Shown in pieces: positions 1,406 to 5,568 of a stretch of DNA of 64,000 bases. Source of the stretch: Streptacidiphilus sp. PB12-B1b (GTDB taxonomy: Bacteria; Actinomycetota; Actinomycetes; Streptomycetales; Streptomycetaceae); NCBI RefSeq assembly GCF_014084125.1, contig NZ_CP048405.1:7006001-7070000 (forward strand), given 5' to 3'. Each line of letters begins with the position of its first letter. Position 1 is the stretch's first letter. A model generated the notes under the pieces. That model was not told the DNA's origin and ran no database searches. It saw only the letters and a program-made list of their open reading frames with translations. The translations under genes and the position numbers were made by a program.

Positions 1406-1894
1406 ATGGCCGACTCCAGTTTCGACATCGTCTCGAAGGTCGAGCGGCAGGAGGTCGACAACGCGCTCAACCAGGCCGCCCGCGAGCTGACCACCCGCTT
1501 CGACTTCAAGAACGTCGGCGCCTCCATCGAGTGGTCCGGCGAGAAGATCGAGATGCGGGCCAACTCGGAGGAGCGGGTCAACGCGATCCTCGACGTCTTC
1601 CAGACCAAGCTGATCAAGCGCGGCATCTCGTTGAAGGCCCTGGACGCGGGCGAGCCGCAGCTCTCCGGCAAGGAGTACAAGATCTTCGCGTCCATCCAGG
1701 AGGGCATCTCCCAGGAGAACGCCAAGAAGGTCGCCAAGATCATCCGCGAGGAGGGCCCCAAGGGCGTCAAGGCCCAGGTCCAGGGCGAGGAACTGCGCGT
1801 CACCTCCAAAAGCCGGGACGACCTCCAGGCCGTCCAGGCCCTGGTCAAGGGCAAGGACCTCGACTTCGCGGTCCAGTTCGTGAACTACCGCTAA
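1406..1894 (+). CDS. yajQ: YajQ family nucleotide-binding protein
   Basis: The 162-residue product matches the YajQ/UPF0234 family over its whole length: the N-terminal SFDIVSKV, the central [18 protein letters not shown], and the C-terminal end FVNYR. In other bacteria YajQ proteins bind nucleotides, including cyclic di-GMP, and act as small cytoplasmic regulators; that role here is inferred. The ATG follows AAGGAG with good spacing, and a Streptomyces-like -10 (TAGGCT, about 1327-1332) lies upstream. The gene is divergent from tRNA-Tyr. Its last 18 coding bases are repeated at 3039-3056, which suggests that something inserted at the gene end while keeping the reading frame. Confidence 0.93.
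1874..1891 (+). repeat. Left copy of attachment-like repeat (3' end of yajQ)
   Basis: CAGTTCGTGAACTACCGC, encoding QFVNYR, matches 3039-3056 at 17 of 18 positions. The single difference is a synonymous G/C. It lies directly before the yajQ stop codon. Confidence 0.7.
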
Positions 1895-1946
1895 AGCAGG
1901 GCTCTGACCTGCGCGTTTGTAGTTCCTGGGCGGAGAGAGGGCACAT

Positions 1947-1987
1947 CGAGGGCACAGCGCTGAGCACAGACTCGATCGCTGCCCTCG
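1947..1987 (+). terminator. Possible terminator after yajQ
   Basis: CGAGGGCA at 1947-1954 pairs with TGCCCTCG at 1980-1987, and the stem can extend with one bulge (AGCG/CGCT). It lies 53 nt after the yajQ stop. No long T-run follows, only TTGTGT. Confidence 0.35.
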
Positions 1988-2035
1988 TTGTGTCCTCCTC
2001 GTCCGGCCAGAGGTGCGTGTAAGGGAAGTTGACGG

Positions 2036-2563
2036 TTACGGCTCGTAGCTCCAGGCGCGGCCGACCTGTCGATACTCCTCAACGGGCAGCGGTTCTACAC
2101 CGGTGCGCATGCGGGCTAGGTAGAGCAGGCCGTCGAGGTGGTCGATCTCGTGGTGGACCAGGCGGGCCAAGCCGCGTTCGTAGCTGGTGACGGCGGTGCT
2201 GCCGTCGAGGGTGGTGGTCTCGACGGTGATGGTCAGCGGGCGCGGGACCAGGCCCCGGACATCGAAGAAGGACAGGCAGCCCTCGTACTGCTCGTCGGTG
2301 TCGGACGAGCAGTCGATGACGCGCGGGTTCAGCAGCACGATGACCGGGGCTCCGGGTTCGGCGGGCTGGACCACGGCGGCGGCTCGGTCGATGCCGAGCT
2401 GAGGGGCGGCGATGCCCATGCCCTTGGCGAAGGAGTGAACCTGGCCGATCGGATCGAGCGAAGCGAACAGCCGGTCCACGGCCGCTTCGGCTTCCGCTCG
2501 CTCGGAAGGCAAGTCGAAACGTCGGGCAGGCCGTTCCAGGATCTCGGCTCCGTACTGGACCAC
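2036..2563 (-). CDS. def: Peptide deformylase
   Basis: The product (175 residues) removes the formyl group from the N-terminal methionine of new proteins. All three metal-site motifs are present: GMGIAAPQLG (48-57), EGCLS with ligand Cys96, and HEIDH (138-142) with ligands His138 and His142 and catalytic Glu139. The first usable start in frame is GTG at 2561-2563; it has no clear ribosome binding site, and the frame stays open upstream without another start, so the N-terminus may be trimmed. Streptomyces genomes carry several deformylases; this one resembles an accessory copy. It lies inside the segment bounded by the yajQ-end repeats, so it may have arrived with it. Confidence 0.85.
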   Translation of the reverse strand: MVQYGAEILERPARRFDLPSERAEAEAAVDRLFASLDPIGQVHSFAKGMGIAAPQLGIDRAAAVVQPAEPGAPVIVLLNPRVIDCSSDTDEQYEGCLSFFDVRGLVPRPLTITVETTTLDGSTAVTSYERGLARLVHHEIDHLDGLLYLARMRTGVEPLPVEEYRQVGRAWSYEP

Positions 2564-2746
2564 GCCGAGGTCAGGCGAGCCGGACCTGGAGATGGTCGGT
2601 AGGCAGGCGGACCGCGCGCTGGAAGCAGCGACGTCCAGATGAGCGACATCGTCTTCTCACATGCATCGAGGCCGATCGGTTGTGGCCGTCCTCGTCCAGC
2701 CCTCCGGCCACCGCCTGAACTCAGCCAGCAGCGTCCACCAGATCGG

Positions 2747-2932
2747 TCAGCTCTCCGCAGGTGATCCCGGTCTGAAGCCGGTCTCGAAGCGCCATATGAG
2801 GCTGCGCACCTCGCTGTACTCAGTCGAATCGAACTCGGCATCGGCCCATCGAGCCCGGATTGCCTCGGTCAGCGCCGTCGGATTGACTCGCCAGCCGGCC
2901 GCATCGCCATCAACTACCACGACGAACGTCAT
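2747..2932 (-). CDS. Small hypothetical protein, possibly truncated
   Basis: The 61-residue frame starts MTFVVVVDGDAAGWRVNP and ends shortly after SLIWRFETGF. The N-terminal part resembles short Streptomyces hypothetical proteins of roughly 110 residues, so this may be the front part of a broken gene. The frame reopens after the stop (LLAEFRRWPEGW region). There is no strong ribosome binding site. It lies inside the proposed integrated segment. Function unknown; a pseudogene remnant is as likely as a working gene. Confidence 0.35.
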   Translation of the reverse strand: MTFVVVVDGDAAGWRVNPTALTEAIRARWADAEFDSTEYSEVRSLIWRFETGFRPGSPAES

Positions 2933-3038
2933 GGACAGGGTCTATCAGTGGCCTCTGACATGACATCCCCATCCGCGCATGCAGGGCAGCCACCAGGGCA
3001 CATTGGGGAAGTATTCCCAGGTCAGCGCCTTGTGATTT

Positions 3039-3056
3039 CAGTTCGTCAACTACCGC
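3039..3056 (+). repeat. Right copy of attachment-like repeat
   Basis: CAGTTCGTCAACTACCGC repeats the end of yajQ (1874-1891) with one synonymous change and is not followed by a stop codon. It lies in non-coding DNA 138 bp before the dehydrogenase start. Confidence 0.7.
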
Positions 3057-3193: not shown

Positions 3194-4153
3194 ATGAGAC
3201 TGCGCTGCGCTGTGCTGGACGACTACCAGGGTGTGGCCCTGGCGAGTGGCGAGTGGTCGGTGCTGGCCGACAGTGTCGAGGTGAGGGTGGTGAGGGAACA
3301 CCTCGCCTCGCAGGACGAGTTGGTGGCGGCCCTGGCCGACTGCGAGATCGTGGTGGCCATGCGGGAGCGGACACCGTTCAGCGCCGAGCTGTTCGACCGG
3401 CTCCCCCGGCTGCGGCTGCTGGTGACCTCGGGCATGCGCAACGCCTCGATCGACCTGGCCGCGGCCGGGCGGCACGGAGTGACCGTGTGCGGGACGGCCG
3501 GCAGCTCCGAGCCGACGGTGGAGCTCACCTGGGCGCTGATCCTGGGGCTGGCCCGGCAGCTGGTCCCGGAGAGCACGGCCCTGCGGGACGGCGGCCCCTG
3601 GCAAAGCACCGTCGGCGTCGATCTGCACGGCAGCCGGCTGGGGCTGCTGGGCCTCGGCAGGATCGGCGCCAGGGTGGCACGGGTCGGCCAGGCGTTCGGC
3701 ATGGAGGTGTCGGCCTGGAGCCGGAACCTGACCGCCGAGCGGGCCGGGGAGGTCGGCGTCCGGCTGGCGGGGAGCATGGAGGAGCTGCTGGCGGACAGCG
3801 ACTTCGTCTCGGTGCACCTGGTGCTGGGCGAGCGGACCAGGGGCCTGGTCGGCGCGGCCGAGCTGAAGCGGATGCGGCCGTCGGCCTATCTGGTGAACAC
3901 CTCGCGCGCGCCCATCGTGGACCAGGCAGCGCTGGCCGAGGCGCTGCGCGGCGGCTGGATCGCCGGGGCCGGGTTGGACGTCTTCGAGACCGAGCCCCTG
4001 GCCGCCGACGACGACGTCCGCTCGCTGCCGAACCTGCTGGCCACCCCGCACCTGGGCTATGTCACGCGCCGGAACTACCGGACCTACTTCGAGCAGGCGG
4101 TGGAGGACATCGCCGCCTTCCTCGCCGGGGAGCCGGTCCGGGTCCTCGGCTGA
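3194..4153 (+). CDS. D-2-hydroxyacid dehydrogenase family protein (NAD-binding)
   Basis: The 319-residue product belongs to the D-isomer-specific 2-hydroxyacid dehydrogenases, which reduce 2-oxo acids or oxidise D-2-hydroxy acids with NAD(P). The Rossmann motif GLLGLGRIGARVA lies near residues 153-165. The catalytic features follow in order: NTSRAPIVD with the substrate-binding Arg, DVFETEPL with the Glu, and TPHLGY with the His. The ATG at 3194 is chosen because AGGGGA precedes it; a longer open frame upstream runs through non-coding DNA. It stands alone, convergent with yccF. The substrate cannot be read from the sequence. Confidence 0.9.
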   Translation: MRLRCAVLDDYQGVALASGEWSVLADSVEVRVVREHLASQDELVAALADCEIVVAMRERTPFSAELFDRLPRLRLLVTSGMRNASIDLAAAGRHGVTVCGTAGSSEPTVELTWALILGLARQLVPESTALRDGGPWQSTVGVDLHGSRLGLLGLGRIGARVARVGQAFGMEVSAWSRNLTAERAGEVGVRLAGSMEELLADSDFVSVHLVLGERTRGLVGAAELKRMRPSAYLVNTSRAPIVDQAALAEALRGGWIAGAGLDVFETEPLAADDDVRSLPNLLATPHLGYVTRRNYRTYFEQAVEDIAAFLAGEPVRVLG

Positions 4154-4704: not shown

Positions 4705-5568
4705 TCACCTGCGGTACCCGGCCATCTGTTCCAGTCGGGCGATCCGTTCGGCCATCGGCGGGTGGGTGGAGAACAGCCGGGCGCCGGCCTCGCCCTGCCG
4801 GAACGGGTTGACGATCATCATGTGGCTGGCTGTCTGCAGCTGCGGCTCGGGCGGCAGCGGCAGCCGCCGGCTGCCGGCGTCCAGCTTGCGCAGGGCGCTG
4901 GCCAGGGCCATCGGGTCGCCGGTGAGCCGGGCGGCCGAGGCGTCCGCCGCGTATTCGCGGGAGCGCCCGACGGCCAGCTGGATCATGGTGGCGGCGAGCG
5001 GCCCGAGCACCATCAGCAGCAGCAGCCCGACCAGGCCGGGACTGTCGTCGTCCTCGCTGCGGCCGAGCGGTATCAGCCAGGCGAAGTTGGCCAGGAACAT
5101 CACCACGGACGCCAGCGAGCCGGCCACCGAGGAGATCAGGATGTCGCGGTTGTAGACGTGCGAGAGCTCGTGCCCCAGGACTCCGCGCAGTTCCTGCTCG
5201 TCCAGGATGCCGAGGATGCCCTGGGTGCAGCAGACCGCCGCGTTGCGCGGGTTGCGGCCGGTGGCGAAGGCGTTCGGGGCGGAGGTCGGGGAGATGTAGA
5301 GCCGGGGCATGGGCTGGCGCGCGGACATCGACAGCTCGCGGACGATCCGGTACAGCCAGGGCGCCTCGAACTCGCTCACCGGCCGGGCCCGCATCGCCCG
5401 CAGCGCCAGCCGGTCGCTGTTCCAGAACGCGAAGCCGTTGGCTGCCAGCGCGACCACCAGGCCCAGCAGCAGGCCGGTCAGGCCCCACGCTCCGCCGATC
5501 ACGACGATCAACACGGAGAAGCCGCCGAGGAGTACGGCGGTCTTCAGACCGTTGTGCCGGCGGTGCAC
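4705..5568 (-). CDS. htpX: Zinc metalloprotease HtpX
   Basis: The 287-residue membrane protease degrades damaged or misfolded membrane proteins. Two N-terminal membrane segments (about 10-48) are followed by the M48 site HELSH (His133, Glu134, His137) and the third-ligand region GRSREYAAD near residue 200; another hydrophobic pair lies between them. Length fits the family. A homologue sits next to the second nuo cluster in Streptomyces, and here too it follows nuoN after a 175-bp gap on the same strand. Confidence 0.93.

Follow-up and report, generated by a model that had tools for sequence, protein, structure and literature searches.

Streptacidiphilus sp. PB12-B1b carries an open yajQ (DUF520) gene at 1406–1894 of the plus strand (Pfam DUF520, 7.8e-60), near the start of the 64,000-nucleotide stretch of DNA that we analysed as a whole and refer to as the window. 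A tRNA-Tyr gene on the minus strand (1092–1176, ARAGORN), some 230 nt upstream of yajQ, belongs to the context, not to the element described below. On the other side, the chromosomal flank holds a D-2-hydroxyacid dehydrogenase gene (3194–4153, plus strand; Pfam, 9.3e-55), and the same neighbour is found in the relatives G062 and G070. SLP1 of S. coelicolor reportedly uses a tRNA-Tyr in the neighbourhood of yajQ; the locus may thus present two targets for integration, tRNA-Tyr and yajQ.

The last six codons of yajQ (1874–1891, plus strand, CAGTTCGTGAACTACCGC) recur on the same strand at 3039–3056 (CAGTTCGTCAACTACCGC), matching at 17 of 18 positions with 1,165 nt between the starts. The single mismatch is synonymous (GTG/GTC, valine). 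This recurrence had been noted in the preliminary description and held up in the genome scan, the shuffles and the simulation. With the variable base written as N and up to three mismatches allowed, pattern scans of the window found only the copies at 1874 and 3039 (0.11 matches expected), and none of 100 shuffles of the window contained two. Among 2,000 simulated 1,165-nt segments, none held a copy of at least 17/18. Across the 7.67-Mb genome, a single contig, seven places match at up to two mismatches, namely the two copies at zero and five others at two, and a reversed control pattern also gave five; at up to one mismatch the repeat is unique to 1874 and 3039. The target end is directly repeated at both boundaries, and we refer to the two copies as the attL and attR cores. 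After the right core comes CCG instead of the stop codon present at the five other tabulated right junctions. The segment has a G+C content of 65.5% against 73.4% for the window, with 12 of 1,258 sliding windows as low or lower; yajQ itself is at 64.4%.

Both cores are embedded in a set of flanking motifs. Twelve nucleotides past the left core stands an inner arm, CTGACCTG (1904–1911, plus strand), inverted relative to the inner arm CAGGTCAG (3018–3025, plus strand), which ends 13 nt ahead of the right core. Farther inward, the attL side carries two outer GGGCACA repeats at 1939 and 1950 with an 11-nt period (1939–1956, plus strand), and the attR side carries one (2996–3002, plus strand) whose partner is lost: three of four outer repeats are kept. 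The layout, in which CAGGTCAG stands 13 nt before the core and CTGACCTG about 12 nt after it, with outer GGGCACA repeats, is common to the yajQ elements of relatives, and outer repeats with the 11-nt period occur at both ends of the elements in G062 and G167. All six tabulated right junctions place the inner arm exactly 13 nt before the core; its sequence is exactly CAGGTCAG in five, and S. alboflavus has CAGGCCAG, one change. At the left junctions, CTGACCTG follows the core after 12 nt in five of six, with CTCACCTG in G083. Core-to-arm spacing at other loci is 10 to 13 nt, and the second site of G062 has CCCACCTG in place of CTGACCTG. The likeness is not limited to motifs: 1892–2021 and the start of the G062 element are 91% identical, 3018–3056 and the end of that element are 95% identical, and the element-side arms are alike across different hosts. 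A core flanked by inverted sites and outer arm sites is the attP arrangement of tyrosine integrases, and the yajQ arrangement, judged from its sequence, resembles it.

The preliminary description had reported the pattern of site-specific integration without an integrase. No working integrase gene is present, as stated there, but the last 31 codons of a tyrosine integrase gene survive antisense at 1929–2021 (minus strand, beginning YTHLWPDEEDTTRAAIES, identified by homology), with the stop codon lost. Read from 2021 to 1929, the remnant is YTHLWPDEEDTTRAAIESVLSAVPSMCPLSA, and its counterpart in G062 is YTHLWPDEEDTTRAAIESALGAVPPMCPLAA; we take its first tyrosine to be the catalytic one. At the nucleotide level it is 91% identical to the end of the G062 integrase gene, and at the amino acid level 75% identical to residues 409–436 of the G167 integrase. 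The integrase gene expected beside one att site is represented in PB12-B1b only by this remnant; open, full-length integrases stand at yajQ in G167 and at loci L077 and L142. Eight of 37 first-look candidates in the PB12-B1b genome were scored, and none was an integrase of the G167 type at E<=1e-80.

Between the cores lie a def gene and a small, broken-looking gene, both as previously described. The def open reading frame (2036–2563, minus strand; Pfam Pep_deformylase, 3.7e-29) has lost its 5' end relative to homologues but carries the three deformylase motifs, GIAAPQ, EGCLS and HEIDH. Just beyond it, a 58-nt stub (2573–2630, minus strand; 75–88% nucleotide identity) is what is left of a gene that in relatives stands ahead of def. 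The stub finds a match upstream of def in 14 of 19 related loci with a def match; none was found in the G062 def locus (L168). Relatives with the stub sequence hold 241–248 nt upstream, mostly 244, including the def start, that are missing in PB12-B1b. In G037 (L170), the gene cut down to this stub is an HTH_31 regulator (2.3e-7). The small gene is the remnant of a 123-codon gene, identified by homology (2685–2960, minus strand; open part 2747–2932). It shares 60% amino acid identity over 57 residues with open copies in G071 and G052, and its middle is deleted, as read from the match to L190. Members of this family occur in 8 other genomes of 200; the remnant has no Pfam or NCBIfam match, and a 123-aa relative has no Pfam match.

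The genome holds five def-like matches, including the one in the segment. Among 200 genomes searched, its nearest relative is a G062 copy (93% amino acid identity) about 184 kb from the G062 yajQ gene. Between PB12-B1b and G062, def shows dN 0.041 and dS 0.393, a dN/dS of about 0.10, and yajQ shows dN 0.028 and dS 0.167. The low dN relative to dS fits purifying selection on def. Since dS is higher for def (0.39) than for yajQ (0.17), the interior need not share the age or history of the site. We considered def as standing cargo of yajQ elements and rejected this: the interior of the segment is unique to PB12-B1b among the compared loci, and the relatives of def sit elsewhere.

Within a genus sample of 14 genomes, 13 carry the yajQ-end pattern, and three carry it twice: PB12-B1b, G062 and G037. 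The copies in G062 are 5,106 nt apart, and a frameshifted tyrosine integrase, readable in two frames, lies directly after yajQ in antisense. Both copies in G037 end complete yajQ genes on different contigs (C2:98269 and C4:3497728) with near-identical flanks, one of them close to a contig end; this pair is probably an assembly duplicate. In the wider family, G167 has perfect core copies 12,962 nt apart (C2:189512-202474), and the gene directly past yajQ, in antisense, is an open 440-aa integrase (Phage_integrase, 3.5e-21). A Pfam scan of 11 further open reading frames in this element, three of them without a match, assigned an HTH_17 xis-like gene, an HTH_31 regulator and a Prim-Pol gene, along with GNAT, PhyH, HNH (just below the score cut-off), MFS and DUF3800 cargo. 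No FtsK_SpoIIIE match falls within the element; the five in that genome are on contigs C1, C9 and C12. Additional paired sites span 5.9 kb in G083, 3.9 kb in S. alboflavus and 4.4 kb in S. caatingaensis, whose second core is degenerate with three mismatches.

Some of these sites appear to hold more than one element. Past the far core of G062 (L119, 8527–8800) comes another att-like arm in a more decayed state, and tandem accretion at its yajQ gene is possible. By eye, a further integrase end is apparent past the far core in the same interval. Open integrases located 2.4–5.5 kb beyond yajQ in G130, G144 and G168 suggest tandem elements there as well. The preliminary description had set integration against two other outcomes, namely the same spacing and genes throughout the family, or a second copy that is absent or degenerate in all relatives. 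Spacing instead ranges from 1.2 to 13 kb with varied content, and 6 of 162 pattern-bearing genomes have two copies.

An empty site should read from the yajQ end directly into the sequence beyond the far core. For six elements, the 160 nt past the far core were compared with the first 400 nt after yajQ at 145 loci, which include several duplicates of one genome. The far flank of G167 matches nine loci, among them S. xanthophaeus, with 80% identity that starts at base 1, and L087 and L092, which begin to match only about 130 nt on. That of S. alboflavus has 17 matches, including S. flavofungini at 93% (base 3 against base 23), and that of S. caatingaensis has one, S. huiliensis at 84% (base 28 against base 58). 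In contrast, the sequence past the near core matches other occupied sites. For these three related elements, flank comparison shows integration at the sequence level, and the predicted empty site was found in relatives. For the PB12-B1b segment itself no empty site was found: the 160 nt after 3056 match none of the 145 yajQ flanks, nor do the far flanks of G083 and G062. Its integration is therefore concluded from the homology of both ends to those of related elements. The CCG in place of a stop codon after the far core indicates that the right flank of PB12-B1b has probably changed, unless its junction was different from the outset. Because the far core of G062 precedes a further, decayed att-like arm, a second tandem element that was since lost is one possible route to such a change.

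How widespread are elements of this kind? Of 394 family genomes, 16 contain the attL pattern and none contains the reversed control. Thirteen of the 16 carry it at yajQ together with further arm or integrase homology; G007 and G223 have it at yajQ with neither, and G098 has it at a different gene, one that ends QYYNYR. The strict attR pattern is found in only four of the 394. Element-side homology was detected at 7 of 80 loci picked by yajQ similarity and at 2 of 30 in another locus set. The five integrases that lie directly at yajQ cluster in a tree from which the broken G062 integrase was left out and in which two of the five, rows L070 and L143, are partial; support is moderate (83/86, below the tool's star level), and next to the cluster stand the tandem group and integrases from other targets.

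An integrase match at E<=1e-80 is present in 14 of 200 genomes. Six are at or near yajQ (G062, G068, G130, G144, G167 and G168), six are separated from yajQ by megabases or lie on a different contig (G030, G033, G127, G138, G140 and G191), and in G022 and G181 no yajQ is present within some 1.5 kb of the match. The idea that all integrases of this type use yajQ is rejected by the six located elsewhere, and target choice varies inside the subfamily. A phage or plasmid source was likewise considered: matches to the G167 integrase in 975 phage and 83 plasmid records are all below 60% identity, and these collections contain no close relative of it.

Three other loci drew our attention by inspection. 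At L140 (G098:C3:284332-284360, minus strand), another gene, one that ends ...QYYNYR (AACTACCGC TAG), is followed by an att-like arm that contains CTGACCTG and repeats of GGGCAC, and about 4.5 kb on by a C-terminal integrase piece. L140 is possibly a secondary target that shares only the AACTACCGC part of the core. At L167 (G140:C212), an integrase with some 40% identity to that of G167 adjoins the end of a gene that looks like glutamine synthetase and whose product closes with HPHEFELYFDI; the gene end is followed by CTGACCTG and GGGCAC arms, as would be expected of a related integrase with another protein-gene target. Finally, at L122 (G165), an inverted yajQ-end copy lies within about 50 nt after the gene (4791–4841), hairpin-like, and no element arms were seen there.

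We conclude with high confidence that 1874–3056 is most probably a decayed relic, similar to a CIME that retains only attL and attR, of a Streptomycetaceae integrative element with the yajQ 3' end as its target. The interpretation put forward in the preliminary description, site-specific integration at the end of a gene, is supported by the integrase-bearing relatives with the same repeats and arms. Entry would have occurred at the yajQ 3' end by tyrosine-integrase recombination across the 18-bp core; we infer both this chemistry and the bases exchanged. The last six yajQ codons would have served as attB, and attP would have carried the same core between the inverted inner arms (CAGGTCAG and CTGACCTG) and the outer GGGCACA repeats. 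With the gene end contained in the core, yajQ would have been rebuilt at attL with its protein kept, leaving the second copy at attR. Deletions, which we place later, would then have removed any replication genes and all but the 3' end of the integrase gene. The accessory fragments, namely def, the regulator stub and the small gene, would have stayed or arrived afterwards. The ancestor probably resembled AICE-type elements, and the segment presumably no longer excises.

Simpler origins of the repeat account for less of the locus. A short duplication at the yajQ end that arose by slippage or unequal exchange, with no integration at all, would suit a repeat that on its own is short and carries one change; it leaves the inverted arms, the integrase remnant and the matching elements elsewhere unexplained, and we regard it as very unlikely. 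Chance resemblance of the two copies is less credible still. In its favour, the five further genome matches at two mismatches equal the count of the reversed control, but neither the shuffles nor the simulated segments reproduced the pair, and its homology to the attachment sites of relatives makes coincidence an exceedingly remote prospect.

Another alternative is a minimal, non-autonomous element that is still alive, whose sites remain usable and which an incoming yajQ-type integrase would excise or carry along in tandem, moving def with it. Core and inner arm have been retained at each end, def appears to be under purifying selection, and G062 has a tandem-like arrangement at the same site; transfer of CIMEs after accretion has also been described, in the main text of PMC5704250. 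Against a live element stand the lost outer repeat and altered right flank, the missing 5' end of def, an interior confined to PB12-B1b among the compared loci, and a genome in which the scored candidates include no integrase of the type at the threshold above. On balance, a live element seems unlikely. A bolder version would posit a Streptomycetaceae element group dedicated to the yajQ 3' end, with the segment as a minimal member that the group's integrases could still move, in trans or in tandem, and that would carry an additional def gene along, perhaps as protection against deformylase inhibitors; we consider this improbable and offer it as speculation.

Among known systems, the joint presence of Int, Rep and Tra defines AICEs, and most of those listed with tyrosine integrases use tRNA genes (both in the main text of PMC3218068). 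According to the main text of PMC9513070, AICEs can accrete and decay at a single site, and 14 of 51 sites lie in protein genes. The yajQ elements resemble AICEs in the tyrosine integrase beside one att site and, in G167, in the HTH_17 xis-like and Prim-Pol genes; they differ in targeting a protein gene, and the PB12-B1b segment has no rep or tra gene. Measured against the combination of Int, Rep and Tra (FtsK/SpoIIIE), PB12-B1b retains only an integrase remnant, and G167 has an integrase and Prim-Pol. Since the FtsK_SpoIIIE matches of G167 lie off the contig of its element, we do not class that element as an AICE. The retention of attL and attR with the loss of integration and transfer genes, together with tandem-like relatives at the site, is what likens the segment to a CIME as set out in the main text of PMC5704250. 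Its right junction is partly degraded, and mobilisation in cis by an incoming element, a trait of CIMEs, is at most hypothetical for the segment.

The closest precedent for a protein-gene 3' end with a duplicated gene end, tandem insertion and integrase remnants is PAISt, at the bacA 3' end of S. turgidiscabies. As the main text of PMC4057263 describes it, PAISt has a tyrosine recombinase and a duplicated gene end at its far side, as at yajQ; integrase remnants occur in relatives, again as here, and PAISt inserted in tandem in tests. Unlike the yajQ elements of 1.2–13 kb, PAISt measures 674 kb, divided into a 105-kb and a 569-kb module, and has an 8-bp palindromic core in bacA (PMC4057263). 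The dusA-targeting family (PMC4482086) likewise ties integrases to one conserved protein gene, but at the 5' end of dusA rather than the 3' end of yajQ. Among the papers listed by literature searches, no title or abstract start names yajQ as an integration target. The gene goes unmentioned in the main text of PMC3218068, PMC9513070, PMC4057263 and PMC5704250; an earlier mention among the 14 protein-gene sites of PMC9513070 is possible.

The finding brings no new principle: the kind of element is familiar, and its landing site at yajQ is probably undescribed. With it, yajQ, a conserved gene, joins the natural integration targets in Streptomycetaceae. The 440-aa integrase of G167 and the attP-like arrangement are a candidate integration tool beside the phage and AICE systems. 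Elements worn down to att sites and scraps, as in PB12-B1b, leave no integrase gene for annotation to find and are easily overlooked.
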